This document shows, in pieces, positions 16,931-63,148 of a stretch of DNA of 64,000 bases. The stretch lies in the IMG/VR virus record IMGVR_UViG_3300042474_001185, positions 1-64,000 of that record; one strand, given 5' to 3'. The stretch comes from a virus. Position 1 is the stretch's first letter; every line of letters starts with the position of its first letter. The position numbers and the translations under genes are program-made. The notes beneath the pieces were generated by a model, which saw nothing but the letters and a program-made list of their open reading frames with translations, was not told the origin of the DNA and made no database searches.

Positions 16931-16938
16931 GTTATAAA

Positions 16939-31453: not shown

Positions 31454-31458
31454 ATAAT

Positions 31459-32160: not shown

Positions 32161-32166
32161 AAAATT

Positions 32167-35026: not shown

Positions 35027-35028
35027 TT

Positions 35029-35433: not shown

Positions 35434-35444
35434 AATAAAAATTT

Positions 35445-47602: not shown

Positions 47603-48472
47603 ATGAATGTAACGATAACATATACTTCACTTGGTGTGGATTCTGGATTTAATTATAATCTAACAGCAAATGTAGGTTCAGTAACACCATCAACTGCAAC
47701 AAAAACGGAATTGTTAGCTGGTAAACTTGTGACTGTTGATGATACTGCTACTAATGTTACTATTACATCTACGGGAACTTGTACTAACGCAAGTACGTTA
47801 AGTATAACAGGTATCCCAACAACTACTACAACCACAACTACAACAACGACAACAACTACAACAACTACAACAACTACGGCAGCACCAACTACAACAACCG
47901 CCGCACCAACAACTACAACCGCAGCACCAACAACAACTACTGCAGCACCAACTACTACAACGGCAGCTCCATTAAATCAAGTAAACTATGGATATGATGC
48001 TTCCGATCCTGATGTGGCTTGTACAAATTTTGAAACCTTTACTTTTTTCGCATTGTTTAATAATAATAATGACCCTTCTGCAAATGGTGTAATTGTGTGG
48101 ACAAATAACAACGGAACTGGAACTCCTGCTAATGGATATTATGCTAGAGGTGGTAATGTATGGTATATGACTGGTGGAGTATTAGGAAGTCAAGCAGTAT
48201 GTTATAGTGGAACACCTACAACTACTACAACCGCAGCTCCAACTACAACCGCAGCACCACCACAAGATTATTATGATTATGAAAGATGTGTTAATCCAAA
48301 TGCATATGAGGGTGGAATTTATAGTATTGGCTTAAATTCGGGAGATTCGCCACCATCAACAATTTTAGTGAGTGGAGATTGTCATAGTATAGTATCATAC
48401 ACACCATCGGCATTTGCTAGTTATACAACCCCTGTATATAGCATACCATCACCTGCGTGTGCTTGTATATAA
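47603..48472 (+). CDS. Mucin-like Thr/Pro/Ala-repeat protein with Cys-containing bead
   Basis: This 289-residue protein has an N-terminal beta domain (residues 1-72, with VTITYTSLGVDSGFNYNL and ITSTGTCTNASTLSIT). A run of about 20 Thr and four TTTTAAP units follow, then a bead (about 123-203) related to those in the upstream protein: DVACTNFETFTFFAL, TPANGYYARGGNVWYM, VLGSQAVC. A short TTTTTAAPTTTAAPP linker and a C-terminal domain with CHS and CACI motifs close the protein. The shared bead and linker show the two genes derive from common modules. Confidence 0.75.
   Translation: MNVTITYTSLGVDSGFNYNLTANVGSVTPSTATKTELLAGKLVTVDDTATNVTITSTGTCTNASTLSITGIPTTTTTTTTTTTTTTTTTTTTAAPTTTTAAPTTTTAAPTTTTAAPTTTTAAPLNQVNYGYDASDPDVACTNFETFTFFALFNNNNDPSANGVIVWTNNNGTGTPANGYYARGGNVWYMTGGVLGSQAVCYSGTPTTTTTAAPTTTAAPPQDYYDYERCVNPNAYEGGIYSIGLNSGDSPPSTILVSGDCHSIVSYTPSAFASYTTPVYSIPSPACACI
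47815..47971 (+). repeat. Thr run and TTTTAAP repeats in second mucin-like gene
   Basis: About 20 consecutive Thr codons (alternating ACA, ACT, ACG, ACC) lead into four or five Thr4-Ala2-Pro units. The pattern is the same as at 47012. Confidence 0.88.
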
Positions 48473-48518: not shown

Positions 48519-49463
48519 ATGAAGAATTTACGTTTCGTATGTGCTCAACCCGCAATTCCATATTACACTTGGCAGGTTGAAGTAATGATACACAATTTTA
48601 TTGAAATGGGAGTTAATCCAAACAATATGGATATAGTTTGTTATGCGGCAAATGGAATAGTACCTCCTGATTGGAGAAAGTTAGCAGACAAATACAACTA
48701 TGTTAGATTTTTCTTTTATGATGATACAAGACGAAATAGAGGATATACATCATCCATAAGACCTAATATATTAAAACAACATTGGAAAGCTAGACCTGAA
48801 ATACATGATGATGTAATTTTTTATCATGATTGTGATATTGCCTTCACAAAACCAATTGGAGAATGGATAACGGACGAAATGATTAATGATAATAATTGGT
48901 ATGGTTCGGATTGTAGATGGTACATATCTTATTCTTATATAAAATCAAAAGGAAATGATGTATTAAGTGCTATGTGTTCACTAATGGAAATTGATGAAAA
49001 GGTTGTTGAAGATAATGAACTAAATGGAATTGGTGCACAATATATAATGAAAGGTATATCCGAAAAATATTGGGAAACAATAGAAATGGATTGTGAAAAG
49101 TTATTTGTTAATATTACAGAGTTAAATAGAATTAAAGTAGAACAAGACCCAACACACCATTCATTACAAATATGGTGTGCTGATATGTGGGCTGTTTTAT
49201 GGAACGCTTGGAAGATGGGATATAAAACAATATGTCATCCTAATTTAGAATTCAGCTGGGCAACATCTCCTGAAAATTTATGGGATAAATGTAATATATT
49301 TCATAACGCAGGTGCTACAACTTCAAAGGATGGATTGTTTTACAAAGCAGAATATATGAACAAATTACCATATAATGAAAATTTAAATATTAAAGAAGGA
49401 ACTACTTCATATGAGTATTGGAAACTAATACAAAAAACAGCAAAAAAATCAGTATTGATATGA
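48519..49463 (+). CDS. GT-A-like glycosyltransferase
   Basis: This 314-residue protein begins RFVCAQPAIPYYTWQVEVMI, has VIFYHDCDIAFTKPIGEW (D-x-D) and YGSDCRWYIS. The C-terminal part contains HHSLQIWCADMWAVLWNAWK and FHNAGATTSKDG, which may provide the catalytic acid and His residues. The shape recalls protein-directed GT-A enzymes of plant and virus type, but no family is assigned. An AAAGG stretch precedes the ATG. It stands immediately after the two mucin-like genes, which are plausible acceptors. Confidence 0.7.
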   Translation: MKNLRFVCAQPAIPYYTWQVEVMIHNFIEMGVNPNNMDIVCYAANGIVPPDWRKLADKYNYVRFFFYDDTRRNRGYTSSIRPNILKQHWKARPEIHDDVIFYHDCDIAFTKPIGEWITDEMINDNNWYGSDCRWYISYSYIKSKGNDVLSAMCSLMEIDEKVVEDNELNGIGAQYIMKGISEKYWETIEMDCEKLFVNITELNRIKVEQDPTHHSLQIWCADMWAVLWNAWKMGYKTICHPNLEFSWATSPENLWDKCNIFHNAGATTSKDGLFYKAEYMNKLPYNENLNIKEGTTSYEYWKLIQKTAKKSVLI

Positions 49464-50425
49464 GTAAATCTTATAGTGTATTTGTTGATGATAAATATTA
49501 TTATGACTTTGTAGCATTATATAATAGTTGGAAATATTATGAAAGTAAAATCCCAATTAAAGTTTATATTGCTGGCGATTTGAGTGAAGAAAGAAGAATC
49601 GCTTTGGAAAAAATAGTAAAAGTTATTAACGTAAGTAGTGATGGTTATGGATATCCGCACTTTAAAGGAAAGTACTTATTTAAATGGATTGGCTTATCAA
49701 AGTATATGGATGATTATGAAATACTATTAGATGCCGATACATTATTTTTATCTAATATTGATTTTCTATTTGATGAATTGGAAAAAGGAAAATTTATAGG
49801 AGCTAGAGAGCATGTAGATGTTATACACAATTCATATGTAACCAATGATGAATGGCCAGATGAATGTATGAGAATAAGAAATCAATTGAAAAAATATATA
49901 GGCGATGTGGCTGATAATTATGTAGAAGATTTAATAACACCAACATATAATGCAGGACTTATTGGATTTAGTAAAGTTCATCATAAATTTTTATTAGATA
50001 AATCCATAGAAATATTAACAAGTGATTTTCACACTGATAAAAATCCAATATCACACTTAGAGCAATATATGATGAATTTATTATTACAATTATATTCAAT
50101 AGATATTCATATTTTACCTCAATTAGAATGGATGAATACATGGCATTGGCATCTTAATCCAAAAAAGATACTAAAAATAGAAGATAGTAAATTTGCATTG
50201 TATAATGATGGAGGTAATAAAATAAATTTTTATCATTTTACAGGAGGTATTGGTTTAGTTGACCCGATTGATAAGATAATGAAACCATGCAGAATGCATC
50301 AGATATACGAATCTCAAGTCTACGAATCTCAATTTAAACGAGACGATGTTGAGAAACTTTGGTATAGTAGATATCAAAATCCAGTAATTTTATTATACGA
50401 ACACTTTGCAAATAAAGGGTTATAA
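49460..50425 (+). CDS. GT-A-like glycosyltransferase (GT8-like)
   Basis: This protein of about 321 residues starts SKSYSVFVDDKYYYDFVAL, with YEILLDADTLFLSNIDFLF (D-x-D), YNAGLIGFSKVHHKFL and NFYHFTGGIGLVDP. The last has the H-x-x-G-type block seen near the end of GT8-like enzymes. The ATG at 49460 overlaps the preceding stop by four bases (ATGA). An upstream in-frame ATG at 49418 would sit in the previous gene. Confidence 0.75.
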   Translation: MSKSYSVFVDDKYYYDFVALYNSWKYYESKIPIKVYIAGDLSEERRIALEKIVKVINVSSDGYGYPHFKGKYLFKWIGLSKYMDDYEILLDADTLFLSNIDFLFDELEKGKFIGAREHVDVIHNSYVTNDEWPDECMRIRNQLKKYIGDVADNYVEDLITPTYNAGLIGFSKVHHKFLLDKSIEILTSDFHTDKNPISHLEQYMMNLLLQLYSIDIHILPQLEWMNTWHWHLNPKKILKIEDSKFALYNDGGNKINFYHFTGGIGLVDPIDKIMKPCRMHQIYESQVYESQFKRDDVEKLWYSRYQNPVILLYEHFANKGL

Positions 50426-50436
50426 AACAAAAACAT

Positions 50437-51465
50437 ATGACAATAAAAGAACAATTTCAAACTTACAAAATTCATCAATTACAATTAGACCCATATGGTG
50501 TATGTAATGCTAGATGCTGGTTCTGTCCAGTAAAATATAAAGGAAACCCAGCGGAAGGGAAAGAAGTGATGAGTGTTGAATTATTAGAAAAAATAATTAA
50601 AAATCTTATTGATGAAAGAGATAGAGAAGATGGTTTAGTACATAAACATTTTGGAGGATTTTATACAGCACATTATAACGAAATTCTTTTATATCCACAC
50701 TTTGAACAATTATTACAAATCTGCCAAAAATATAGATTATGTTTTATGGTATTATCCAATGGAGTTCCTTTGACTCCTGACAAGGTTGATTTAATTGTAA
50801 AATACAAAGGTGTTGTAAATGGTATATGTCTAAATATTCCAGCATTTGAACCTGAAGTTTGGAGTTTAAGAAGTGGTATAAACATAAAGCAATTTGATAA
50901 ACTAATATCTAATGTAAAATATGCTATGGAACAACTACCTGATATGGTACAAAACAAATCATTCTCAATTCAAATAAATGGTTCTAGTGAACATTCTTTT
51001 AGTGATAAGGGTGGTTGGTTAGATAAGGGTATTGAATTTCCAACTGATATAGATTTGGACCCAGTTACTGGTGAGTTAGCTAAGCAAACCCAAATAGCTA
51101 AAAATTTATTTGAAGGTTTACAAATATATCCATGTGCATCTTTAATTGATAGAGCTGGTTTGTTGGACCATATAATGACTAATAAAGAAGCAATAAAAAG
51201 AAACTTACAGCATGGAGATGAAACTAAAAAAGTTATTGGATGTGGTAATGGTAGAGAAGTAGGTGGTAGACCTGTTGGTTGGATTCATGTAAACGCAGCG
51301 GGTAAAGTATTCCTTTGTTGTAATGACTATGATATGGAAGTTCAGTTTGGAGATTTTAAAACGCAAGAATTAAGTGAATTCTGGGGAAGTACAGAGCACC
51401 AAAGAAAAGTGCAAAAATCATACGATACGATTTGTAGAGGATGTGCTTCGGCTATTTTTGAATAA
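50437..51465 (+). CDS. Radical SAM/SPASM-like protein
   Basis: This 342-residue protein has the radical SAM cluster motif C-N-A-R-C-W-F-C (CxxxCxxC) at about residues 24-31, preceded by QLDPYGV. A C-terminal Cys set follows (GKVFLCCNDYDMEVQFGDF, then TICRGCASA), typical of SPASM or twitch auxiliary clusters. Such proteins modify peptides or sugars by radical chemistry. Here it sits between glycosyltransferases and APS kinase, so a sugar or glycoprotein substrate is plausible, but none can be named. Confidence 0.87.
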   Translation: MTIKEQFQTYKIHQLQLDPYGVCNARCWFCPVKYKGNPAEGKEVMSVELLEKIIKNLIDERDREDGLVHKHFGGFYTAHYNEILLYPHFEQLLQICQKYRLCFMVLSNGVPLTPDKVDLIVKYKGVVNGICLNIPAFEPEVWSLRSGINIKQFDKLISNVKYAMEQLPDMVQNKSFSIQINGSSEHSFSDKGGWLDKGIEFPTDIDLDPVTGELAKQTQIAKNLFEGLQIYPCASLIDRAGLLDHIMTNKEAIKRNLQHGDETKKVIGCGNGREVGGRPVGWIHVNAAGKVFLCCNDYDMEVQFGDFKTQELSEFWGSTEHQRKVQKSYDTICRGCASAIFE

Positions 51466-51497: not shown

Positions 51498-51968
51498 ATG
51501 ATATATTGGTTTACGGGTCAACCCGGTGCAGGTAAGACGGTATTAGGTACTAAGTTAAAAGACTTTTTACAAACCGAAAAGAGAAATTGGAGAAAGGATG
51601 TATTCCATATTGACGGAGATGATTTAAGAGAATTGACTCTTAATAAAGATTACACAGAACAAGGTAGAATTCAAAACATTAAGAATGCACAATTATTAGC
51701 ATATTTCCTACAAGCTAATGAGTGTGATGTTGTTGTTTCTTTAGTCGCACCATATAAAGAATTAAGAGAGGAATTTAAAAAAATATGTGCGGATAATATA
51801 ATTGAAATTTATGTTCATACTAATCGTAAAAGACAAAGAGAACAATTTAAAGTAGAGGGATACGAAGCACCTGAAACGAACTTCTTTGATATGGATACAA
51901 CATCTGATAATCCAACACAATCTTTTACAAAATTAATACATCACTTAAGAGAAATAGATAAATTATAA
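51498..51968 (+). CDS. cysC: Adenylylsulfate (APS) kinase
   Basis: This 156-residue kinase makes PAPS, the activated sulfate donor, from APS and ATP. It has Walker A FTGQPGAGKTVLG, the HIDGDDLREL block, GRIQNIKNAQLLAYFL, VVVSLVAPYKELREEF (the family S-x-I-x-P-Y block) and IYVHTNRKRQRE. The length is near the CysC family (about 180). It starts a small set with an HxGH nucleotidyltransferase and DUF2061, and a sulfotransferase-like gene lies 5.3 kb downstream. Confidence 0.88.
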   Translation: MIYWFTGQPGAGKTVLGTKLKDFLQTEKRNWRKDVFHIDGDDLRELTLNKDYTEQGRIQNIKNAQLLAYFLQANECDVVVSLVAPYKELREEFKKICADNIIEIYVHTNRKRQREQFKVEGYEAPETNFFDMDTTSDNPTQSFTKLIHHLREIDKL

Positions 51969-51972
51969 AGTT

Positions 51973-52332
51973 ATGAAAAAATACGCAATGTACATTGGAA
52001 GATGGCAAAATTGGCACAAAGGACATGAGTGGTTAATAAACCAACAATTAGAAAAAGGTAAAAACGTTTGGGTAGCAATTAGAGATGTTCAGCAAGATGA
52101 GAACAATCCAAAGACGGCTCAACAAATCCTAAAAGAATTATCAGCAGAACCATTTTTTACAAACAATTTTGATAAGATTTTGTTATCTATTATTCCTGAT
52201 ATTGAATCGGTGAACTATGGCAGAGGTGTAGGATATGATGTAATTTATCACGAACCACCTGCAGATGTAGCTGTAATTAGTGGTACTGCTATCCGTAATG
52301 GAGAAATGAAATCAGATGGTAGTTCAACGTAA
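51973..52332 (+). CDS. HxGH nucleotidyltransferase
   Basis: This 119-residue protein of the cytidylyl/adenylyltransferase fold has YIGRWQNWHKGHEWL with the H-K-G-H active site, VWVAIRDVQ, and ISGTAIRNGEM near the C terminus. The two motifs are shared by NMN/pantetheine-phosphate adenylyltransferases and by ATP sulfurylase. Four bases after APS kinase, an adenylyltransferase supplying APS is a tempting idea, but the protein is much shorter than known ATP sulfurylases. It overlaps the DUF2061 gene by 17 bases. Confidence 0.8.
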   Translation: MKKYAMYIGRWQNWHKGHEWLINQQLEKGKNVWVAIRDVQQDENNPKTAQQILKELSAEPFFTNNFDKILLSIIPDIESVNYGRGVGYDVIYHEPPADVAVISGTAIRNGEMKSDGSST

Positions 52333-52525
52333 GAGACATATAGCTAAGACCATCTCATATCGTATTTTAAGTACGCTTATAGGGTTTTGTATAATGTGGT
52401 GGGTAAGTGGTTCAATCAAAGTTGGAGCGGCATTTGGGGTAGCAGAATTGATTTATAAACCCATCCAATACTACATTCACGAAAGAATTTGGTATAAGTG
52501 GATAAAATATGGATTGAAAAAATAA
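52316..52525 (+). CDS. DUF2061 membrane protein
   Basis: This 69-residue protein starts with a basic stretch (QRKRHIAKTISYRIL) followed by two hydrophobic segments (STLIGFCIMWWVSG and VGAAFGVAELIYKPIQYYIHERIWY). The T-I-S-Y-R and HERxW blocks match DUF2061. In Bacteroidota, DUF2061 genes are, as I recall, often found beside sulfate-activation genes such as cysC and cysD, which fits this place after APS kinase. The molecular role is unknown. Confidence 0.8.
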   Translation: MVVQRKRHIAKTISYRILSTLIGFCIMWWVSGSIKVGAAFGVAELIYKPIQYYIHERIWYKWIKYGLKK

Positions 52526-52570
52526 AATTGATATACTTATATGTAGAAATACAAAATAGTATATCAATTT
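52525..52570 (+). promoter_or_regulatory. Perfect 13-bp inverted repeat upstream of HTH-HNH gene
   Basis: AAATTGATATACT (52525-52537) and AGTATATCAATTT (52558-52570) are exact reverse complements separated by 20 bases. An ATACTTATA motif (52533-52541) overlaps the left arm. The right arm ends 6 bases before the ATG at 52577. It may be an operator, or an mRNA hairpin controlling translation. Confidence 0.65.
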
Positions 52571-52576
52571 AGTTAT

Positions 52577-53137
52577 ATGGAAGATGAAGAAGTAAAAGGG
52601 TTTCCTAATTTTGACCCAACGAAAGATTTATCATTAGCACCTCAAAAGAGAACAAAGAGAGGATTGGGTGCTAGACCTTTATTAGAAAGTGAAATAAAGG
52701 CTATACAAAAGAAAGCCCGTTCAGCGGCTGAAGCAGCAAGATTATTAGGTGTATCGTACAACACATACAAAAAGTACGCAAGAGAATATAAAGTATTTGA
52801 TGATTTAAAGAATCCATCTGGTATTGGTATTCGTAAAGGTACTCAAACTAGTGGTGGATTCCATGCATTGGATGATGTATTAAATGGAAAATATCCGAAT
52901 TACCCAGTTTGGAAATTAAAAAAGAGATTATTACTTAATTCATATATGGAAGAAAAGTGTAATAATTGTGGATTTTGTGAAAGGAGGGTAACAGACCATA
53001 GAGTTCCATTGATTTTGGACTTTTTGGATGGAAATCGTAAGAATTTCGCATATGAAAACCTTAGAATGTTATGTTTTAACTGTTCGTTCCTAATAAATGG
53101 AAATCTTACAGGTCCTAGAAAAGAATATGAGTATTAA
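52577..53137 (+). CDS. HTH protein with HNH-type zinc-bound nuclease-like domain
   Basis: This 186-residue protein has an HTH in the middle (AIQKKARSAAEAARLLGVSYNTYKKYARE, residues about 45-72). A C-terminal domain has CNNCGFCERRVTDHRVPLIL followed by ENLRMLCFNCSF. The D-H (first HNH His), the following N and the two C-x-x-C pairs are the layout of HNH nucleases with a structural zinc. The usual third His is not obvious, so activity is uncertain. It could be a free-standing homing-type endonuclease or a regulator derived from one. A perfect inverted repeat precedes it. Confidence 0.75.
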   Translation: MEDEEVKGFPNFDPTKDLSLAPQKRTKRGLGARPLLESEIKAIQKKARSAAEAARLLGVSYNTYKKYAREYKVFDDLKNPSGIGIRKGTQTSGGFHALDDVLNGKYPNYPVWKLKKRLLLNSYMEEKCNNCGFCERRVTDHRVPLILDFLDGNRKNFAYENLRMLCFNCSFLINGNLTGPRKEYEY

Positions 53138-53169
53138 TTTGGTAGATTCAGAAAATTATCGTATATTTA
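53138..53169 (+). promoter_or_regulatory. Bacteroidota-type promoter for the 53197 gene
   Basis: TTTG at 53138-53141 and TATATTTA at 53162-53169 are 20 bases apart. The core starts right after the previous stop, and the context (TTTGGTAGATTCAG, ATCGTATATTTAC) matches the other promoters. Confidence 0.75.
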
Positions 53170-53196
53170 CATAAATCAAATTTAAAACAATAAATT

Positions 53197-53418
53197 ATGG
53201 CAAAGTATTTTGAAGTTACAGTGACCGTTCAACACGAAGTAGATGGCGGCAAAGGTGGTACAAAAATTAAGAAAGTAAAAGAAAGTTATTTAGTAGATGC
53301 TATGACCGTTACGGAAGCAGAAGCTAGAGTAGTTAAAGAATTCGAATCAGCAGGTGTAAGCTTAGAGTATGAAGTATCAGCTGCAAGAGAATCTAAAATC
53401 TTACAAGTAATTCAATAA
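53197..53418 (+). CDS. DUF4494-like small protein
   Basis: This 73-residue protein has KYFEVTVTVQHEVDGG, KKVKESYLVDAMTVTEAEARVVKEF. The order (strand, loop, strand, YLVDA, then T-E-A-E-A) is that of DUF4494, a family seen in Bacteroidota and their phages. Function is unknown. It is coupled by a one-base overlap to the following gene and has its own promoter, suggesting strong or early expression. Confidence 0.72.
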   Translation: MAKYFEVTVTVQHEVDGGKGGTKIKKVKESYLVDAMTVTEAEARVVKEFESAGVSLEYEVSAARESKILQVIQ

Positions 53419-53675
53419 TGGGAATCGAAACAAAAATCGAAGAAGTTAAAGAAGTAATAATGAAAAGAGTTCCACCGGGTGATAGATGGTCACCTGTGGA
53501 TTCTCCTTCTGTTACTTTGGATAGTTTGACTGATGCATTGGAATATCATTTCCAAAACACAGGCCAAACTGAATTTTTCTTGTCTGCTAGAAAGGGTACT
53601 GTAGAGGTTATCCACAAACAAGAAGTTAAATTTGAGAAACCTGTTAAAAGGTATTCTCTATATGATGAGGATTAA
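53418..53675 (+). CDS. Hypothetical 85-residue protein
   Basis: This small protein has KEVIMKRVPPGDRWSPVDSP and a helix (TLDSLTDALEYHF), then FFLSARKGTVEVIHK. No family is recognised. It overlaps the DUF4494-like stop by one base and is in the same transcript. Confidence 0.6.
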   Translation: MGIETKIEEVKEVIMKRVPPGDRWSPVDSPSVTLDSLTDALEYHFQNTGQTEFFLSARKGTVEVIHKQEVKFEKPVKRYSLYDED

Positions 53676-53681
53676 AAATCG

Positions 53682-53717
53682 TTATGTTTACTAAAAAACA
53701 TAATACTTATATAAATA
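53682..53717 (+). promoter_or_regulatory. Small hairpin followed by late-type promoter motif
   Basis: TTATGTTT (53682-53689) pairs with AAACATAA (53696-53703). ATACTTATA (53703-53711) and TATAAATA (53710-53717) follow. The hairpin may end the upstream transcript, with the motifs starting the next; no T tract follows the stem, so the terminator role is weak. Confidence 0.35.
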
Positions 53718-53736
53718 ACATAAAAAACAAACAATT

Positions 53737-53988
53737 ATGAGTACATTCGCTATCGTAGTATTGGTTATCGCAATCGGTGCCGTTGCTACATTTATCGCTA
53801 TGAAAAAGGGTACAATCGCAGACGCAAACAACAACAACATTCCAGATGCAATTGAAGAAAAAGTTGCTGAAGTAAAAGAAGTTGCTAAGAAAGTAAAAGC
53901 AGTTGCTGAAAAAGCTACTAAAGTTGCAAAGACCGTTGTAGTAGAAAAGAAAGCTACAAAGAAGCCAGCAGCTAAGAAAACAAAATAG
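53737..53988 (+). CDS. Single-span membrane protein with Ala/Lys-rich tail
   Basis: This 83-residue protein has an N-terminal transmembrane helix (FAIVVLVIAIGAVATFIAM). A short Asp/Asn-rich motif follows (ADANNNNIPDAIEE, resembling Ca-binding thrombospondin type 3 loops), then a long Lys/Ala helix with a histone-H1-like end (KKATKKPAAKKTK). Such a protein could link membrane and DNA, but this is only inferred from composition. No family is known to me. Confidence 0.65.
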   Translation: MSTFAIVVLVIAIGAVATFIAMKKGTIADANNNNIPDAIEEKVAEVKEVAKKVKAVAEKATKVAKTVVVEKKATKKPAAKKTK

Positions 53989-54045
53989 TATAGAAATATA
54001 CGTCAATATGTTACGTTACACTTTACAACAAAAATGTAACAACAA

Positions 54046-54174
54046 ATGGCAAAGTCAGTAGGTTCAGCAAACAAAGTATCTTTCGGTAAAAGAAAGACTG
54101 GAAAGATTAATGGTAGAAAATCATACGGCCCTAAATCACAAGCACCTAAGAGGTACAAAGGACAGGGGAAGTAA
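54046..54174 (+). CDS. Very small basic protein
   Basis: This short frame encodes 42 residues (MAKSVGSANKVSFGKRKTGK at the start, ending KRYKGQGK). It is very rich in Lys, Gly and Ser and has no acidic residue, suggesting nucleic-acid binding. It lies between the Ala/Lys-rich membrane protein and the DUF454-like gene, in the same orientation, and fills the gap well. Confidence 0.6.
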   Translation: MAKSVGSANKVSFGKRKTGKINGRKSYGPKSQAPKRYKGQGK

Positions 54175-54190
54175 TTAAAATAAAGAAGTT

Positions 54191-54601
54191 ATGAAAATTT
54201 GGTTATGGAGATTACTCGGACTATTGTTCGTAGGTTGCGCATACATCGGAGCTATTGTTCCTGGCGTACCTATGACAACATTTGTAATCTTAGCAGCATG
54301 GGCATTCGCTAAGAGTTCACCAAAGTTAAATCATTGGTTGCATACTCACCCAACATTCTCACCATATCTTATTAGATGGGAGGAAAAAAGCATTTATCCA
54401 ACGAAAGTTAAATGGATAATGGCTATTACTATGGTTGTAAGTTATTCCATTTTACTATTCACATTACATAAACCAGCAGCACTTATTGGTATTGGTTGCT
54501 TTATGTTATTTTGGGTAGTATGGGCTTGGAGATATCCGGGTTCAGAAGAAGAATATGAGCGTAGAAAGAAAGCTGGAGAGAAAATTGGTTGGACAAAATA
54601 G
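54191..54601 (+). CDS. DUF454 (YbaN-like) membrane protein
   Basis: This 136-residue protein has three or four hydrophobic segments. LWRLLGLLFVGCAYIGAIVPGVPMTTF is first, and WAFAKSSPKLNHWLHTHPTFSPYLIRWEE follows. Later come IMAITMVVSYSILLF and AALIGIGCFMLFWVVWAW. The P-G-V-P-M-T-T and S-S-P-K-L-x-x-W-L-x-x-H blocks match the DUF454/YbaN family of inner-membrane proteins. Its role is unknown. An AAGTT ATG start context is the same as in neighbouring genes. Confidence 0.85.
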   Translation: MKIWLWRLLGLLFVGCAYIGAIVPGVPMTTFVILAAWAFAKSSPKLNHWLHTHPTFSPYLIRWEEKSIYPTKVKWIMAITMVVSYSILLFTLHKPAALIGIGCFMLFWVVWAWRYPGSEEEYERRKKAGEKIGWTK

Positions 54602-54612
54602 TTTAATCTAAT

Positions 54613-55380
54613 ATGGAAGATGTTACACTTATCATTCAAGGAAGATTGACACAAGAAACATATGATTTTTATCTAAAGACTTGTACCAATTTTCCTGTTC
54701 TTATTTCCACATGGGTGGATTGTAAAATAGATTTCTCTAGTTTACCACCTAATTTTTTAGTAATATTATCACAAATTCCTGAAGAGCCTGGTGCTCAAAA
54801 TTTTCATTATCAAACTGTTTCTACTTTAACTGCATTAGAAAGAATAAAAACAAAGTATGCAATTAAAGTGAGAGGTGATGAATTTTATTCAAATTTGCAA
54901 TATATTCATAATGTATTAAGAGTAGATCCCGATAAAATACATTCTGCTCCGGTATTTTTTAGAGCGTGGCAGTACTCGGAATATCATATATCAGACCATG
55001 TTATAGCTGGTACAACTGAAAATCTATTGATTATGTTTAGAGCATGTAAGCACAACTTTGATACTGGTAAGATGAATGTTTCAAAATGGAAAATTGATGG
55101 AAACTTTCATAAATACGTTACAACTCATGCACCCGAAGAACGAATAACTAAATCTTATTTAGATGCTAAAGCTCCTGATAAGTTTGAAAGAGTTGATGGT
55201 AGAATATTAATGAAAGAATATTTTGATATATTAGATTTAAATTTATTAAAACCATACAAAGTAAAAGCAAATTTATTTAGAGTAGAATGGTATGATAACT
55301 TCCTTCCAGAAGCAAATTATAGTATATCAACCATAGACCAATTATTTAGTGATGACCCATATAAAATACCAAACCAATGA
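54613..55380 (+). CDS. WavE-like glycosyltransferase
   Basis: This 255-residue protein begins VTLIIQGRLTQETYDFYL, with FPVLISTWVDC and NFHYQTVSTLTALERIKTKYAIKVRGDEF, the acidic R-G-D-E site. The order is that of WavE-type LPS glycosyltransferases (IIQG, STW, QxxS, KxRxDE). Donor and acceptor are unknown. It overlaps the next gene by four bases (ATGA). Confidence 0.75.
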   Translation: MEDVTLIIQGRLTQETYDFYLKTCTNFPVLISTWVDCKIDFSSLPPNFLVILSQIPEEPGAQNFHYQTVSTLTALERIKTKYAIKVRGDEFYSNLQYIHNVLRVDPDKIHSAPVFFRAWQYSEYHISDHVIAGTTENLLIMFRACKHNFDTGKMNVSKWKIDGNFHKYVTTHAPEERITKSYLDAKAPDKFERVDGRILMKEYFDILDLNLLKPYKVKANLFRVEWYDNFLPEANYSISTIDQLFSDDPYKIPNQ

Positions 55381-55802
55381 TACTAATATCGCATAGAGGA
55401 AACATAGATGGTAAAATACCTGAATACGAAAACAATCCAAATTATATACAAGCTGCATTAGAGTTAGGTTACGATGTAGAAGTTGATGTATGGTTTGTTG
55501 ATGGTAAGTTTATGTTAGGACATGATGAACCGCAATACGAAACTGATTATAAGTTTTTGATGAACGAAAAGTTATGGTGTCATGCTAAACACTTGGATGC
55601 ATTGTTTGAAATGAAAAAATATGCAATTCATTACTTTTGGCATGAAACTGATACCGTAGCACTTACATCTAAAAATTATGTTTGGGCATATCCTGGTAAG
55701 CAACCAATCAAAGGAAGTATAGCTTGTATGCCTGAATTGGAAAATGATAATGTACTACTTTGTAAAGGTATTTGTTCTGATTATATAAAAAGGTATAGGT
55801 AA
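55377..55802 (+). CDS. GDPD-like (PI-PLC fold) protein, short
   Basis: This 141-residue protein starts MILISHRGNIDGK, with YDVEVDVWFVDGKFMLGHDEPQYE. The H-R-G, E-x-D and H-D residues match the active site of glycerophosphodiester phosphodiesterases (H-R, E-x-D, H). The family normally has 230-300 residues, so the second half of the barrel is missing or much reduced. It might trim phosphodiester-linked glycan groups, but its shortness leaves activity uncertain. Confidence 0.72.
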   Translation: MILISHRGNIDGKIPEYENNPNYIQAALELGYDVEVDVWFVDGKFMLGHDEPQYETDYKFLMNEKLWCHAKHLDALFEMKKYAIHYFWHETDTVALTSKNYVWAYPGKQPIKGSIACMPELENDNVLLCKGICSDYIKRYR

Positions 55803-56204
55803 ATGAATATATATCCTCCAGCTAAAGTTTATATAGCAAAAAGTAGTGTTCATGGCTGGGGTGTTTTTGCCAAAGAAATAATCTATGAAGGGGAGGTAAT
55901 AGAAGAAACCCCGTTATTAGACCTAAAGATTGAGAAAGGGTCACCATCATCGGTTTTATTAGATTATAGATTCAATTGGCCGCAAGGAAGTGGTAACAAT
56001 TGGGAAAAACAAGTTATACCTTGGGGATATGGTTGTTTATATAATCATTCCAACGAAGCTAATGCATATTGGCGCTCAAATTTGGAAAATGAAACTTTTG
56101 AATTTGTAGCAAATAGAGATATAGAAATTGATGACGAAATATTTACCTATTATGGTGGTGTTGAGTATTGGGAAGATGGTAGAACTAAAACAAATGTAGT
56201 ATAA
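55803..56204 (+). CDS. SET-domain protein
   Basis: This 133-residue protein has KVYIAKSSVHGWGVFAKEII, GEVIEETPLLDL, YGCLYNHSNEANAYW (the N-H-S SAM site) and NRDIEIDDEIFTYYGG (the ELTxxYG-type block). These are all SET-domain motifs, so it probably methylates lysine in a protein. The substrate is unknown; phage basic proteins or host proteins are candidates. It is one base away from the previous gene and overlaps the next by one base. Confidence 0.9.
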   Translation: MNIYPPAKVYIAKSSVHGWGVFAKEIIYEGEVIEETPLLDLKIEKGSPSSVLLDYRFNWPQGSGNNWEKQVIPWGYGCLYNHSNEANAYWRSNLENETFEFVANRDIEIDDEIFTYYGGVEYWEDGRTKTNVV

Positions 56205-57016
56205 TGAAAATAGCACTTTGTTTTTCTGGATTTATTAGAGATTTAGATGAAACTAAAAACTTTTGGACAGAACTTATAGAAAAACATAAGATAGATGTGT
56301 ATGCCTCTTTTTGGGATACTGAAAAACCTGAATTGAATGATACTATAAACAATTTCTTAACAATATATACTCCTAAAAAATATGAAGTTGAGAATTATAA
56401 AATATTCAAAGAAACAACGCAAGATTTTGCTTCAATGAATATAGCATCTCCACAAAACTTACTTCCACATTTACAAGATACCTCAAAAGCATTTGGGCAA
56501 CTATCAATGTATTATAAAGTTTGGAAATGTAATATGCTTACTAAGCAATTGGGTATAGAGTATGATTTAGTTATAAGAGCTAGAACCGATGTTATTTTAG
56601 ATGAGCATTTTGAAATAGTTGAAAATGATATGTTAAATATACCAATGGGATGGATGAGTTGTTTTTCATATCCGCACTCCGATGGTATAAATGATTGCTT
56701 TGCATACGGAAGACCAAAGATAATGGATTATTATAGTTTTATATATCTTAGAATGATGGAATATCTAAATGTAGGACATTATGTATTCCCACCAGAACAT
56801 TTCTTAGCTGTACATTTTAGTAAGATTCATATTCAAATGAGATACTTTCCAAACTATATGATAATAACAAGAATATCAAAAGGTACACCACATGATGTTT
56901 ACAATTCTTTTATAACAAAACCATACGAAGATATAAGATGGAGTGATTGGAATGATTTTATTCCGGATGAAAGGTGGACATTTAAGAAATCAATAAAAGA
57001 TGATTTTATCGTTTAA
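56204..57016 (+). CDS. Glycosyltransferase-like protein
   Basis: This 270-residue protein starts IALCFSGFIRDLDETKNFW, has SKAFGQLSMYYKVWKCNML and LVIRARTDVILDEHF, where R-x-R-x-D probably forms the donor site. Proteins with this A-L-x-x-S-G-x-x-R start occur in LPS and capsule clusters. The fold is likely GT-A, but no family is assigned. It is coupled to the SET gene by a one-base overlap. Confidence 0.65.
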   Translation: MKIALCFSGFIRDLDETKNFWTELIEKHKIDVYASFWDTEKPELNDTINNFLTIYTPKKYEVENYKIFKETTQDFASMNIASPQNLLPHLQDTSKAFGQLSMYYKVWKCNMLTKQLGIEYDLVIRARTDVILDEHFEIVENDMLNIPMGWMSCFSYPHSDGINDCFAYGRPKIMDYYSFIYLRMMEYLNVGHYVFPPEHFLAVHFSKIHIQMRYFPNYMIITRISKGTPHDVYNSFITKPYEDIRWSDWNDFIPDERWTFKKSIKDDFIV

Positions 57017-57052
57017 ATGTATAATGTTATATTTAATAAAAAATAAAGCATT

Positions 57053-57220
57053 ATGAATGTAGAAAACAAAATCAAAGACATTATAGATATGTTAGAAGAT
57101 GCTATCTCATTTGAAGATTGGAATAGAGTTGAGGAAGCACAAAAAGAACTAACATTTATATATGAAGAAATGCAATCATCATTTCCTCTAGATGAGTGGG
57201 ATGAGAATGATATAGATTAA
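57053..57220 (+). CDS. Small acidic helical protein
   Basis: This short frame encodes 55 residues, MNVENKIKDIIDMLEDAISF at the start, with an acidic C terminus (LDEWDENDID). It is probably one or two helices. No family is recognised. It fits neatly between the 56204 gene and the sulfotransferase-like gene, starting 36 bases after the former. Confidence 0.6.
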   Translation: MNVENKIKDIIDMLEDAISFEDWNRVEEAQKELTFIYEEMQSSFPLDEWDENDID

Positions 57221-57227
57221 TAAAAAT

Positions 57228-57947
57228 ATGGTAAAAAAAATACTGGTTACGGGATTCCCCCATAGTGGGACTACTATACTTCGTGCTAAAATTGGAGAAT
57301 GTAAAAACATATATGAGGCTCAATATGAATGTGTAGACCCACCAAACTTCTACCCAGCTATGCCATATGATTTTTATGTATGGAAGCATCCTTTTTTGGA
57401 TACGCCATTTAGAAATCATACGTTTGCAATAAAGCCTGACAGTAAATACGTTGATACAATTGTTATTCCAATTATTAGAAATCCTTGGAATATATTTTCA
57501 TCCTTACATAAGAGAGGTACACAAAGTGGAGAATTTTCAATATATGATAGTAGACAGGGACATTCTTTACCTTGGTATGAAAATACATGCGAAGTTATAT
57601 TTGATGCATTTCAAAAAAATTATAAAGATGTATATCCAATAAAATACGAAGAAATGTTTGATAATAATTTTGAAAAGCTTAGAAATATTTTTGATAGTAT
57701 TGGATTGGAATATGATGATGATATATTTGAAAAAAGAACCAAAGAATTTAGTCATGGTGATGCTATGTATGTAGAAGATTATGATAAAAACGGAAAGTAT
57801 GATGGTGGTTTGAGAGCTTGGCAAATAAACCAACCTTTTAAAAATATGAATGGAGATATTAATTTACCCGATGATTTTTCTCAAATGTTAGCAAATTCAC
57901 CAAGCATTCAAAAATTAGGGTATTCGGACCCTCGTATAACTGATTGA
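57228..57947 (+). CDS. Sulfotransferase-like protein
   Basis: This 239-residue protein begins KKILVTGFPHSGTTILRAKI, where G-x-P-x-S-G-T-T is the 5-prime-phosphosulfate loop of PAPS-dependent sulfotransferases. The 3-prime-phosphate site follows in IPIIRNPWNIFSSLHKRG (R-x-P-x-x-x-x-x-S). YPIKYEEMFDNNFEKLRNIFDSIGL is the usual C-terminal block of the family. It would transfer sulfate from PAPS to a sugar or protein hydroxyl. The APS kinase at 51498 would make the donor. The stop codon overlaps a regulatory repeat. Confidence 0.82.
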   Translation: MVKKILVTGFPHSGTTILRAKIGECKNIYEAQYECVDPPNFYPAMPYDFYVWKHPFLDTPFRNHTFAIKPDSKYVDTIVIPIIRNPWNIFSSLHKRGTQSGEFSIYDSRQGHSLPWYENTCEVIFDAFQKNYKDVYPIKYEEMFDNNFEKLRNIFDSIGLEYDDDIFEKRTKEFSHGDAMYVEDYDKNGKYDGGLRAWQINQPFKNMNGDINLPDDFSQMLANSPSIQKLGYSDPRITD

Positions 57948-58087: not shown

Positions 58088-60313
58088 ATGAGTTGGTACA
58101 ACGATTTCAAAACAGGTACAAAGGATTATCTAACAAAAGGTAATTCAAAACAATCAAAGACTTATAGTAAGTATGGTAGCTCCTCTTGGTGGATGAGTGA
58201 TTGGGATGACACAGGTTATTCTAATTCGTTCACTACTACACAAGTTAAATCAAAGAACTTGTATAAGATGGCAGCTCATCGTAGAGCAATCGCTAACTTC
58301 GTAAGTATTGTAACAGGTAAAGCTATACCTGTAAAATTTAACACCAAAGGTAATTCATACACCGATGGTACTACAGTAGTAATTTCATCCAAAGTAGCAG
58401 AACCAAATGAGTTTGACCCGGCAGTAGGGTTGGCATTGCATGAAGGTTCACACATTAAGTTATCCAATTTTAAGTTATTGGCTGATATGTACCAATCTAT
58501 TCAAAAAGTAGTTGGACCGGCTAAATTAAAAGAATGGCAGGAAACCGCTAAAAAGAAAAACATTGATGATATTATCTATACCATTAAGGATATTCTTAAC
58601 TGGGTAGAGGATAGACGTATTGACCAATTCATATTTGATGGTGCACCGGGTTATAGAGATTACTATCGTTCAATGTATGATAAGTACTTTAATGACCCTG
58701 CTATTGATAAGGGTATGCAATCCGATGAATTCAAAACGGAAACAATGGATGCTTATATGTTCCGTTTGATTAACTTACATTCTAAGTTCAGTAAAGCAAA
58801 CGCACTTAAAGGTTTGAGTGAGATTACAAAGATAGCTAAGTTATCAGATATCAATCGTTTAAAAACTACGGATGATGCCTTAGTAGTTGCTTGTGATATC
58901 TTTGAGGTTATTCTTAACAACATAGATGCCGAAGAACAAAAAGCTGAGAACAAAGCTAATGGTAAGAAACAAAAAGGTAATGGTAACGGACAAGGACAAG
59001 CTCAGCAAGCAGGTGAGGGCGAAGAAGAAGCTGGTGAAGATGATATTGAAGTAGAGATGGGTGATGGTGGTAGTGAAGGTATGGGTGATGATGGTGAAGA
59101 TTTTGATGAGGCTGGTGATAATGGACCTGCTGAACCCGGTAAAGGTGTGGTAGGTAAGATTAAAGCAGTATTAGGTGGTAAGGGTAAAGGTAAACCTGCC
59201 GATGGTAAGTTATCCCAAAGGCAAATGGATATCCTTAAAAAGAAAATTGAAAAGCAAAAAGAATTCCTAAGAGGTGAAGTTAAGAAAGGTAGTGTAAGTA
59301 GTAGTGAAAATAAATCATTAGATACCATTGACCAATCTGGTACTGAATTAAAGAAGGTAGGTGAGGAATTGGCAAATGGTAAGGTAGTAACGAAAGGTAT
59401 TGATTGTATTGTTGTTAAGAAGATGACACAAACCTTATTAGAATCGCATGATTTCCCATTATCATCTTTACGATACAACGCCAAAGAAGGTGAGCATCAG
59501 TGTCAATCACAATGTGCTAGTGAGGTAGCTGAAGGCATTCGTATTGGTACGGTATTGGGTAAGAAGTTGCAAGTTCGTAGTGAGAGTAGAGAAACAATCT
59601 TCAATCGCCAATTGGTTGGTAGAATGGATAAGAGAATGATTTCATCTTTGGGTTTTGGAAATGAGCATGTGTTCTATACAAAAGAGATTGATGCATATAA
59701 GAAAGCTAACTTACATATTTCAGTAGATGCCTCTGGTTCTATGAGTGGTACGAAATGGAGAAAGACTATGACTAACGTTGTAGCATTGGCTAAGGCAGTT
59801 AGTATGATTCCTAATTTAGAAATTCAAATTAGTTTCCGTACTACGTCTGGTGAGTTACCTTATATCGTAGTTGCTTATGATAGTAGAGTTGATAAGTTTA
59901 TCAAAGTAAAAACTTTGTTCCAATACTTACAGCCGGGTGGTACAACGCCGGAAGGATTGGCATTTGAAGGTGTGATGAAACAAATGGTGGGTAGTACTAC
60001 TGATGTTGATAGTTACTTCTTAAATATATCCGATGGTGAACCTTACTTTCACGGTAAAGGTTACAACTATCACGGTTATTACGCTAGTAAGCATACCCGT
60101 AAGATGGTAGATAAGATTGAGGCTATGGGTATCAAAGTAATGAGTTACTTTGTTAGTGATTATAGTGGTGATATGGATTCTACATCTGGTAGTGGTAAAG
60201 TATTCAAAGATTGTTATGGTAAAGCAGCTCATTATATCAATGTAACAAATGTAAACGAAGTAGTTCGCACAATGAATAAATTGTTTATGAATAAGCCCGC
60301 TGGTATTGAATAA
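58088..60313 (+). CDS. VWA-domain protein with HExxH motif (MoxR partner)
   Basis: This 741-residue protein has an N-terminal region with a zinc-protease-like H118-E-G-S-H122 (VGLALHEGSHIKLSN) and helical DRRIDQFIFDGAPGYR. A highly acidic low-complexity linker follows (about residues 290-355). The C-terminal von Willebrand A domain has the metal site D547-x-S-x-S in LHISVDASGSMSGTKW, with TPEGLAFEGVM and FLNISDGEPYF. It is paired with the AAA+ ATPase at 60494. The layout resembles CobT/CoxE or DUF2201-type proteins that work with MoxR ATPases as chaperone-like machines. The target is unknown. Confidence 0.88.
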   Translation: MSWYNDFKTGTKDYLTKGNSKQSKTYSKYGSSSWWMSDWDDTGYSNSFTTTQVKSKNLYKMAAHRRAIANFVSIVTGKAIPVKFNTKGNSYTDGTTVVISSKVAEPNEFDPAVGLALHEGSHIKLSNFKLLADMYQSIQKVVGPAKLKEWQETAKKKNIDDIIYTIKDILNWVEDRRIDQFIFDGAPGYRDYYRSMYDKYFNDPAIDKGMQSDEFKTETMDAYMFRLINLHSKFSKANALKGLSEITKIAKLSDINRLKTTDDALVVACDIFEVILNNIDAEEQKAENKANGKKQKGNGNGQGQAQQAGEGEEEAGEDDIEVEMGDGGSEGMGDDGEDFDEAGDNGPAEPGKGVVGKIKAVLGGKGKGKPADGKLSQRQMDILKKKIEKQKEFLRGEVKKGSVSSSENKSLDTIDQSGTELKKVGEELANGKVVTKGIDCIVVKKMTQTLLESHDFPLSSLRYNAKEGEHQCQSQCASEVAEGIRIGTVLGKKLQVRSESRETIFNRQLVGRMDKRMISSLGFGNEHVFYTKEIDAYKKANLHISVDASGSMSGTKWRKTMTNVVALAKAVSMIPNLEIQISFRTTSGELPYIVVAYDSRVDKFIKVKTLFQYLQPGGTTPEGLAFEGVMKQMVGSTTDVDSYFLNISDGEPYFHGKGYNYHGYYASKHTRKMVDKIEAMGIKVMSYFVSDYSGDMDSTSGSGKVFKDCYGKAAHYINVTNVNEVVRTMNKLFMNKPAGIE

Positions 60314-60493: not shown

Positions 60494-61699
60494 ATGGTAA
60501 AGTCTAAAAAAGACAAAGTAAGTAACCAAATTTACAAAGTTGTAAAAGTTGGTACACATTTTAAGTTGGCAAATACAGCCGGTACAATTGTAGGTACGAA
60601 TGGTATAAACACAGGTACTCGTAAGAAAGCTTATGAGACTAAGAAAGCTCTTAGAGAGGTAGTAGGTAAAGGTGGAAAAATTTCATATCGTTTAGTTGAT
60701 ATGAAAGAATATTCGGATTTAGTTGCTCCATTAAAGAGTAACGCTGAAGTGAATAACGAAGTGAGTAGTGCGCATGAAGATATCAAAAACTTCATACACA
60801 ATGATTCAGTAGCATTAAAGCCTGAATCAATCGTAATGACTGACCTTAAGTGGAAGTACTTAATTCGTTCAGCAGTTAGAGCAAAAAATATTATGATGAC
60901 TGGACCTGCTGGTTGTGGTAAAACAATGGCAGCTAAAGCATTAACTAAAGGTTTAAATCGTCCTGATTTCTACTTTAACTTAGGTGCTACGCAGGATGCT
61001 AGAGCAACCTTAATTGGTAACACACACTTTGATAGTAAGAAGGGTACATTCTTTAGTGAATCTGCTTTCGTAAAAGCTATCAGTACTAAAAACGCTGTTA
61101 TCTTATTGGATGAGTTGAGTAGAGCACATCCGGACGCTTGGAATATCTTAATGACAGTATTGGACCAGGGCCAAAGGTACTTAAGATTGGATGAGGCTGT
61201 TAATTCTCCAATTGTGAATGTGGCTGAAGGTGTAACCTTTATCGCTACCGCTAATATCGGGGGTGAATACACGTCAACACGTGTTATTGATAGAGCAATT
61301 ATGGACCGTTTCACTACAATTGAAATGGATGTGTTGAATGATGAGCAAGAATTTGGATTATTGAAATATATGTACCCAGCGGTGAATGAAGAAGATTTGA
61401 AAGCAGTAGCTGAAATCGCTCATCACACTCGTGAGGTAAGTAAGGGTGGTGATGGTAAGTTGAGTACAATGGTATCAACTCGTGCTAGTGTTGAAGTAGC
61501 TGGGTTGTTGTATGATGGATTCAATTTGTTTGAAGCAGCTGAGATTGGTATTTTCCCATTCTTTAGTAACGATGGTGGAGCAGATAGTGAAAGAACTTAT
61601 GTGAAGCAATTAGTTCAGAAGTATGTGAAGGACGAGAAGGCTGATGAGAAATTATTCACCGAACCAACCGAAGAAGATAGTGAAACTATTGTTTGGTAG
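60494..61699 (+). CDS. MoxR-type AAA+ ATPase
   Basis: This 401-residue protein has a non-ATPase N-terminal part of about 115 residues, then Walker A MTGPAGCGKTMAAKAL, the LGATQDARATLIGNTHF loop, Walker B AVILLDELSRA, sensor 1 FIATANIGGEYT, and the arginine-finger region DRAIMDRFTT. These features are of MoxR/CbbQ/CobS type. It should use ATP to remodel a protein or complex together with the VWA protein upstream. The N-terminal part contains KAYETKKALREVVGKGGK and may bind substrate. It ends 28 bases before a terminator. Confidence 0.9.
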   Translation: MVKSKKDKVSNQIYKVVKVGTHFKLANTAGTIVGTNGINTGTRKKAYETKKALREVVGKGGKISYRLVDMKEYSDLVAPLKSNAEVNNEVSSAHEDIKNFIHNDSVALKPESIVMTDLKWKYLIRSAVRAKNIMMTGPAGCGKTMAAKALTKGLNRPDFYFNLGATQDARATLIGNTHFDSKKGTFFSESAFVKAISTKNAVILLDELSRAHPDAWNILMTVLDQGQRYLRLDEAVNSPIVNVAEGVTFIATANIGGEYTSTRVIDRAIMDRFTTIEMDVLNDEQEFGLLKYMYPAVNEEDLKAVAEIAHHTREVSKGGDGKLSTMVSTRASVEVAGLLYDGFNLFEAAEIGIFPFFSNDGGADSERTYVKQLVQKYVKDEKADEKLFTEPTEEDSETIVW

Positions 61700-62521: not shown

Positions 62522-63148
62522 ATGTTAAGTAAAGCAAACGGAAACGAAGTAATAGATAAGTTTGAAAAGAGTAAACGATTGGATTCGGCAGCTAAATACT
62601 ATGGCCTGTTTTTAGAATCATTGGGATTTGATTACGAATCTGACCCTCAAACAATAGATACCCCTAAGAGAGTAGCTAAGGCTTGGTTGGATGATTTGAT
62701 TAAAGGTAGTATAACAAAGGAACCTGATATCACTGTGTTCCCAAATGAGGAGCATTACAATGGTGTGGTTATTCAGACGGGTATCAAAGTTAATTCAATG
62801 TGTGCTCATCATAACTTACCTTTCTATGGATATGCAGCTGTTGCTTACATACCTAAAGAAAATGTAATTGGATTGAGTAAGTTGAATAGAATTGTAGAAT
62901 GGTTTAGTAGGAGACCTCAAATGCAGGAATCCCTAACGGCTCAAATACATAAATTCGTTAGTGATAAATTGCAGTGTGATGATGTGGCTGTATCAATTAG
63001 TGGACATCACCTTTGTTGTGGTATGAGGGGAGTACAACATCCCGATAGTGTAATGACCACCAACAAATTTAGTGGGGCATTTGTGGAGAAAGATAACTTA
63101 GTAAGACAGGAATTTCTACATGCAATTAAAATGAATAATTTAAAATAA
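62522..63148 (+). CDS. folE: GTP cyclohydrolase I
   Basis: This 208-residue enzyme converts GTP to dihydroneopterin triphosphate. It has DTPKRVAKAWLDDL, the zinc-binding VNSMCAHHNLPFYGYAAVAYIP, IGLSKLNRIVEWFSRRPQMQE, and HHLCCGMRGVQ with the second zinc Cys. All active-site blocks are intact. In phages FolE commonly supplies the first step of 7-deazaguanine (preQ0) synthesis for DNA modification, or folate for nucleotide synthesis. No queC, queD or queE is in this window; they could lie downstream. Confidence 0.95.
   Translation: MLSKANGNEVIDKFEKSKRLDSAAKYYGLFLESLGFDYESDPQTIDTPKRVAKAWLDDLIKGSITKEPDITVFPNEEHYNGVVIQTGIKVNSMCAHHNLPFYGYAAVAYIPKENVIGLSKLNRIVEWFSRRPQMQESLTAQIHKFVSDKLQCDDVAVSISGHHLCCGMRGVQHPDSVMTTNKFSGAFVEKDNLVRQEFLHAIKMNNLK

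Follow-up and report, generated by a model that had tools for sequence, protein, structure and literature searches.

The stretch of DNA considered here (the window) comprises positions 1–64,000 of the 79,837-base IMG/VR record IMGVR_UViG_3300042474_001185, which stems from an uncultured phage. There are four genes in it that may together serve sulfation: a kinase of the adenosine 5′-phosphosulfate (APS) kinase family, a small nucleotidyltransferase of the HxGH type (NTase), a small membrane protein of the family DUF2061, and a sulfotransferase of the type that uses 3′-phosphoadenosine 5′-phosphosulfate (PAPS). These genes are referred to by their first positions, i.e., 51498, 51973, 52316 and 57228, respectively (Table 1). 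An earlier note on this DNA had described them as a phage sulfation module, and all four open reading frames (ORFs) were found at the places it gave, all on the plus strand. The first three genes form a tight unit (the trio), because the kinase and NTase genes are separated by 4 bp and the NTase and DUF2061 genes overlap by 17 bp.

The kinase matches the APS kinase family PF01583 with an E-value of 4e-16 and 59.7 bits (the Pfam gathering cut-off is 21.1), and its best match in the Protein Data Bank is the APS kinase 2yvu (E 6e-13). Four motifs, i.e., the Walker A P-loop, DGDxxR, RxxNI and SxxPYxxxR, were all found in it, in agreement with the previous description of an APS kinase with an intact P-loop. 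The NCBIfam equivalog TIGR00455 gives 55.1 bits, below its cut-off of 138.7. Known APS kinases have a lid, KGLY..FTGID, which touches APS. The lid (searched for as KGLY..A..FTGID) is present in 3 and absent from 121 viral kinases, whereas 53 of 72 cellular proteins have it; among the cellular kinases paired with the NTase, both full-lid APS kinases and short-lid, phage-like ones occur.

The NTase carries the motifs GRWQNWHKGH and SGTAIR, which are of the HxGH/ISxTxIR type. Its family residues are invariant among 45 viral relatives, and in 161 distinct NTase sequences the pattern GRxQxxHxGH...PD...GRxVGY...SxTxxR is invariant, the GRxVGY segment being invariant or nearly so. The Pfam match is weak (CTP_transf_like, E 0.06). 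Structural comparison of an AlphaFold model (pLDDT 84.7) indicated a fold like those of PPAT and NMNAT, with a Z of about 10 for both; together with the HxGH and SxTxxR motifs, the Rossmann-like fold of the model places the protein in the HxGH nucleotidyltransferase superfamily, as had been proposed. Its sequence does not assign the NTase to the Sat family. There was no match of 51973 to PF01747 (Sat) at an E-value of 0.1; the absence of a Sat chain from the top 50 structural matches is uninformative either way. The sequence matches to NMNAT and PPAT span chiefly the N-terminal half of the NTase and lie under the curated cut-offs, e.g., 22.4 bits for the NadM equivalog TIGR01527 (cut-off 181.2), over the N-terminal 50 residues only. 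The profile alignment of the NTase with NMNAT ends before GRxVGY, and this segment has no counterpart in NMNAT alignments. A tree of the NTase domains (147 sequences, few columns, many unresolved forks) shows strong clustering of viral and of cellular sequences, with about six changes between the two, and most viral NTases group near Marinimicrobia sequences. This pattern agrees better with a few transfers long ago than with frequent capture in recent times.

Genome contigs were scanned with the NTase alignment, and 80 of the 467 relatives were taken; one locus (L173) was set aside, leaving 79 cellular loci. In 40 of the 79 an APS kinase adjoins the NTase, and in 31 the two are fused, with one locus (L219) counted in both, i.e., about 70 in total. 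The fusions are found in Marine Group II (MGII) archaea, haloarchaea, some Bacteroidota, Nomurabacteria and DPANN archaea. CysQ is encoded within 4 kb of the NTase in 31 loci (the copy in L250 matches TIGR01331 with an E-value of 1e-72), and k11/k90 sulfotransferases are nearby in about 15. In four Nitrospirales loci (L193, L195, L202 and L212), the NTase lies beside an APS reductase (TIGR02055, E 3e-81) and a protein of the sulfite/nitrite-reductase family. Thus, APS is the common denominator of the cellular contexts, since a single NTase family is accompanied by different kinases and, in Nitrospirales, by a reductase that uses APS.

Three further observations were made on these cellular genomes. 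The four Nitrospirales genomes also hold a Sat-containing frame of 587–593 amino acids. In the contig of L296, IscU-like, ferredoxin-like and IscA-like ORFs follow one another at 65343–66898 (recognised by eye). A Sulfotransfer_5 gene near the NTases of Marinimicrobia was set aside as evidence, as it has the same flanking genes in most of these loci whatever its distance from the NTase.

Of 50 genomes with the NTase, 42 are without both Sat (PF01747) and a full CysD. Sat was absent from all 148 Flavobacteriales genomes searched, and a strong APS kinase (at least 100 bits) was found in 64 of them. Among these 64, CysD is present in all 59 genomes that lack the NTase and in none of the five that have it (G025, G029, G036, G048 and G148; Fisher p 1.3e-7, uncorrected for kinship). 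Both the 50-genome and the Flavobacteriales counts thus have the NTase in the place of Sat or CysDN beside an APS kinase, and the wider support for replacement comes from the 50-genome test, in which it recurs in different phyla. In Chitinophagales, the NTase occurs in one of 199 genomes, one without CysD, and CysD in 159, which amounts to a single point. The comparison in Halobacteriales is uninformative: most matches are NMNATs (113 of the 117 in the ring), a strong match is present in 6 genomes, and Sat is rare. CysD was undetected in the MGII genomes examined.

On this sequence evidence, the NTase is most likely a non-canonical ATP sulfurylase, because it is linked or fused to APS kinases, because the known sulfurylases are absent from most of its genomes, and because it is complementary to CysD in Flavobacteriales. 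The short NTase had been suggested previously as a possible source of APS; this is the best supported of the new points.

The third gene of the trio does encode a DUF2061 protein (PF09834, E 3e-15, 56.6 bits; gathering cut-off 23.1), as had been claimed. A strong DUF2061 match is present in 34 of the Flavobacteriales genomes, and in 24 of these its gene lies within 1 kb of an APS kinase or CysD; DUF2061 is therefore part of cellular sulfate-activation operons too.

Of 348 relatives found by scanning viral contigs with the kinase, the best 80 served for the analysis of synteny (81 loci with the window). In profile searches, the NTase was found near the kinase in 69 of the 80 contigs and DUF2061 in 63. 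Since it recurs in most of these loci, the trio is no chance grouping. In 18 of the 80, a sulfotransferase gene lies immediately 5′ of the kinase or within 1.6 kb of it, and several of these genes share 4 bp with the start of the kinase gene (the copy in L022 matches PF13469 with an E-value of 2e-17); reciprocally, anchoring on this upstream sulfotransferase revealed a kinase nearby in 36 of 80 contigs. No homologues of CysH or CysQ, and no APS/PAPS reductase, were found in the viral loci searched. Cultured phages of Stenotrophomonas, Xanthomonas and Clavibacter carry relatives of the NTase, and in two inspected Stenotrophomonas phages the kinase and the NTase form a single chain (L263, 6599–7339; L264, 5590–6321). 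A gene for a HAD-family phosphatase, which might act on a nucleotide by-product, often lies between the viral kinase and NTase (e.g., L074, 8441–8797); the window does not have it.

The product of 57228 matches Sulfotransfer_3 (PF13469) with an E-value of 2.5e-7 and 31.6 bits (gathering cut-off 27). Its segments GFPHSGTTIL and RNPWNIFSSL are conserved in an alignment of eight members and resemble the 5′-phosphosulfate-binding (5′-PSB) and 3′-phosphate-binding (3′-PB) loops, respectively, of known PAPS sulfotransferases; a C-terminal motif, RTWQINQPF (R-W-Q-I), is also conserved in the family. The profile of the family matches solved sulfotransferases (CurM, E 8e-7) and aligns with the upstream viral sulfotransferase family at 96.8% in hhalign. 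An AlphaFold model of 57228 is of low confidence (pLDDT 54, built from 3 sequences) and serves as supporting evidence only; the top 50 structural matches of this predicted fold are all PAPS sulfotransferases, with Z of 7.7–9.3. The earlier note had described a sulfotransferase with both PAPS-binding loops, which the family match and the conserved loops bear out. The outcome that it would have taken as a refutation, a P-loop kinase lacking a pocket for PAPS, is not what was seen: the protein matches PAPS sulfotransferases over the whole length.

Within the 79.8 kb contig, 57228 is the sole member found of the two sulfotransferase families, and it differs from the sulfotransferase usually tied to the cassette. 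Its family is rare: a single-sequence scan returned no relatives, there were none in INPHARED, and a search with a three-sequence alignment gave 11 viral loci. The trio lies upstream of the 57228 relative in L082–L084 and L086 (the contigs of L002, L003 and L017, and one near copy), and in L089–L091 a kinase, here with a full lid, and the NTase lie 2–3 kb downstream of it. In L085, L087, L088 and L092, no kinase was detected.

From family membership, synteny and the apparent replacement of the canonical ATP sulfurylase in cells, we consider it fairly probable that the trio is a compact cassette for sulfate activation, i.e., for the production of PAPS, in which the NTase is an ATP sulfurylase of a new type, and that 57228 uses this PAPS. 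What follows on catalysis, on DUF2061 and on the acceptor is inferred. The NTase would convert ATP and sulfate to APS and pyrophosphate, as a non-orthologous ATP sulfurylase; the kinase would phosphorylate the 3′-OH of APS, yielding PAPS; DUF2061 would be a membrane protein of sulfate-activation operons, with sulfate uptake as a guess at its role; and 57228 would pass the sulfuryl group of PAPS on to an acceptor, which might be a glycan or a protein made by the neighbouring genes. The combination of a donor-making enzyme and a sulfotransferase in one phage module, as first suggested for this locus, has support in the viral synteny and in the cellular contexts of the three cassette genes. What is new is probably a pathway of sulfate activation and sulfation whose first enzyme is of a new type. 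The chances are about even for a wider proposal, in which the GRxVGY NTase would be a third class of ATP sulfurylase, so far overlooked, with members in marine Bacteroidota, Marinimicrobia, Nitrospirales, haloarchaea and Marine Group II/III archaea; in some of these, fused to an APS kinase, it would form a PAPS synthase of one chain. Many aquatic phages would then have it within a complete and self-sufficient cassette for sulfation, by which the virion or the surface of the infected cell is modified.

Several observations weigh against sulfate activation by the trio and use of its PAPS by 57228. The kinase of the window lacks the KGLY..A..FTGID lid. The nearest neighbours of the NTase in sequence and fold are NMNAT and PPAT, not Sat, and the part of its model that bears GRxVGY has the lowest confidence (pLDDT about 51). 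Eight of the 50 NTase genomes do hold Sat (6) or a full CysD (2), the counts for replacement rest on genomes of unreported completeness, and the five flavobacterial NTases appear to form one clade in the tree, perhaps reflecting one replacement event. Furthermore, MGIIb archaea have been annotated with cysD/cysN (PMC6864105), which conflicts with the MGII result given above. In the Stenotrophomonas phage Bhz60, the fused kinase–NTase lies beside genes for a NADAR protein and a DNA methyltransferase, and there was no annotated sulfotransferase near the fusion in the inspected stretches of Stenotrophomonas phages; with such neighbours, the kinase–NTase module may have other uses. Finally, 57228 sits 4.7 kb downstream of the trio, past glycan genes and unrelated genes, so that the four genes are not a single contiguous operon.

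This distance bears on the alternative that 57228 is a real sulfotransferase which draws on PAPS of the host, independently of the trio. The rarity of its family and the four loci in which its relatives were found without a kinase are also in keeping with such independence, but the gene or its relatives co-occur with the trio in the window, L002/L003 and L017, and a kinase and the NTase lie within 3 kb in L089–L091; we regard independence as unlikely, albeit the likeliest of the alternatives. Slightly less likely again is that the host supplies APS or PAPS, that only the kinase and the sulfotransferase serve sulfation, and that the NTase acts in the salvage of NAD or cofactors, like an NMNAT. 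The nearest matches of the NTase (NMNAT and PPAT) and the NADAR protein next to the fusion in Bhz60 would suit this role, whereas the tracking of APS kinase in about 70 of the 79 cellular loci (31 of them fusions), the complementarity to CysD and a GRxVGY segment foreign to NMNAT alignments would not. In addition, the haloarchaea that bear the fusion hold a second, weaker match (28–31 bits, mostly 180–210 amino acids, the size of an NMNAT), which is probably the organism's own NMNAT. This separate gene, together with the alignment that stops short of GRxVGY, makes NAD synthesis an unlikely role for the NTase.

There is a small chance that the kinase and the NTase make a different group activated on a 3′-phospho-nucleotide, which the “sulfotransferases” would then move. 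A precedent exists in Cj1415–Cj1418 of Campylobacter, four enzymes, including a diphosphoramidate kinase, that make CDP-phosphoramidate 3′-phosphate for the decoration of the capsule (PMC11800397), and the phage kinase without the APS-specific lid and the glycan genes close by could be accommodated in this way. Against it, the partners of the NTase in cells are full-lid APS kinases, CysQ, APS reductase and sulfotransferases, and L089–L091 combine a full-lid kinase, the NTase and a 57228 relative. That the cassette consists of auxiliary genes for assimilatory sulfate reduction to cysteine is very improbable: a published report interprets viral cysC and cysH in this manner (PMC9529941), and the Nitrospirales NTase adjoins an APS reductase, but the viral loci searched yielded no CysH homologue, and sulfotransferases adjoin the kinase instead, a linkage that PAPS for reduction would leave unexplained.

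The genes around the proposed cassette, together with the four genes themselves, are given in Table 1.

Table 1. Genes and repeats of the window, the four main genes first (aa, amino acids; GT, glycosyltransferase)
Feature	Position	Strand	Basis
APS-kinase-family P-loop kinase, shortened lid, 156 aa	51498–51968	+	PF01583, 2yvu match
Small HxGH NTase, 119 aa, candidate non-canonical ATP sulfurylase	51973–52332	+	motifs, fold, context
DUF2061 small membrane protein, 69 aa	52316–52525	+	PF09834
PAPS-type sulfotransferase, 239 aa	57228–57947	+	PF13469, motifs, CurM, structural matches
Radical SAM/SPASM protein, directly 5′ of kinase	50437–51465	+	PF04055 E 7e-11, PF13186 E 3e-8
GT-like gene 5′ of cassette	48519–49463	+	phrog_4417 match
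GT-like gene 5′ of cassette	49418–50425	+	weak matches
WavE-like gene between trio and sulfotransferase	54613	+	PF07507 E 3e-8
Small SET-domain gene between trio and sulfotransferase	55803	+	PF00856 E 2e-12
GT-like gene between trio and sulfotransferase	56204 (block 54613–57016)	+	
Subtilase-family peptidase	44500–46083		PF00082 E 9e-35
Thr-rich ORF	46097–47542		TTTTAAP-type repeats
Thr-rich ORF	47603–48472		TTTTAAP-type repeats
Repeat, 21-bp unit, 11 copies	47033–47266		
GT	15548		phrog_2170
GT	16939		phrog_2170
GT1	29527		
Epimerase	34091		
GT2	37510		
Tail fibre/collagen-like tail protein	18760–20826		9-bp tandem repeats
Large ORF	58088–60313		no family match
AAA_5 ATPase	60494–61699		
GTP cyclohydrolase I FolE	62522–63148		E 5e-51

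The radical SAM/SPASM gene is present in 2 of the 81 kinase loci only (the window counted), and its tie to the cassette is uncertain. As for the two GT-like genes 5′ of the cassette, 49418 has a weak match to Mannosyl_trans3 (E 3e-4, under the cut-off) and 48519 matches phrog_4417, to which phrog assigns no function; both are possible acceptor-side genes. Between the trio and 57228, the order WavE-like, SET and GT-like is kept in L002/L003, and in L017 too, the SET gene being undetected there. Just 5′ of the GT-like genes 48519 and 49418 are the two Thr-rich ORFs, with the 21-bp repeat in their region and the subtilase gene immediately before them. Possibly, the Thr-rich products are O-glycosylated, mucin-like virion proteins, both name and role being guessed. 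The earlier note had proposed a glycan as the acceptor and drawn a comparison with mucin; such an acceptor is possible, and for a mucin-like one the products of 46097 and 47603 are no more than suggestive. Other glycan genes lie within 15548–18228 and 29527–38790. Beyond 57228, the large ORF, which recurs in 6 related viral loci, is followed by the AAA_5 ATPase, and the FolE gene may have a role in base modification or folate. No near-identical phage was found in INPHARED. The locus set aside above (L173) is on a contig of a Chitinophagaceae metagenome-assembled genome with the phage trio and its neighbours; this contig is probably that of a phage which was binned with the genome, and it hints at a host among the Bacteroidota.

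The biological use of sulfate begins with ATP sulfurylase, for which, to our knowledge, only two types are generally recognised, Sat and CysDN, which are unrelated to each other. If the NTase is indeed a third type, an enzyme of 110–120 residues would close a gap in the pathway for bacteria and archaea that are abundant in the sea, the annotation of its genes as NMN adenylyltransferases would be corrected, and DUF2061 would be linked to sulfate activation. Phage “cysC” would then shift from a gene of sulfur nutrition to part of a sulfation pathway, and phage sulfation could change the surfaces of virions or cells and thereby adsorption, superinfection or defence.

Among known viral systems, the closest in kind are the viral cysC genes from marine samples, virus-encoded APS-kinase-like proteins, for which part of the report describes no links to an NTase, DUF2061 or a sulfotransferase (PMC9529941). 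The cyanophages S-SKS1, S-SRM01 and S-SCSM1 have a sulfotransferase related to the cassette-adjacent viral one (about 30% identity); around that of S-SCSM1, the one of the three inspected, no cassette is annotated. In the open-access PMC, we found no paper on a phage sulfotransferase when searching by phrase, and none that calls this NTase an ATP sulfurylase. Cj1415–Cj1418 of Campylobacter resemble the cassette as a small set of enzymes that makes a 3′-phosphorylated nucleotide donor for surface decoration, but differ in the activated group. We know of no link between them and CysQ or APS reductase. The kinase shares with CysC (PF01583) the Walker A, DGDxxR, RxxNI and SxxPYxxxR motifs and a significant match to solved APS kinases, and differs in having no KGLY..FTGID lid and in falling far under the NCBIfam equivalog cut-off. 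The fold and two motifs (GRxQPxHxGH and SxTxxR) are common to the NTase, NadM and CoaD; the NTase differs from the other two in scoring below the family cut-offs, in its distinct GRxVGY segment, and in a context of sulfate activation rather than of NAD or coenzyme A. The likeness to Sat/PAPSS (PF01747) and to CysD/CysN lies in the proposed reaction. CysD is unrelated to the NTase. Sat is also an HxGH-type nucleotidyltransferase, but the phage NTase differs from it in having no PF01747 match, 119 residues versus about 400, and the GRxQPxH motif with the GRxVGY signature. In animal PAPS synthase, the kinase domain precedes the adenylyltransferase domain, and the archaeal fusions have this same order.

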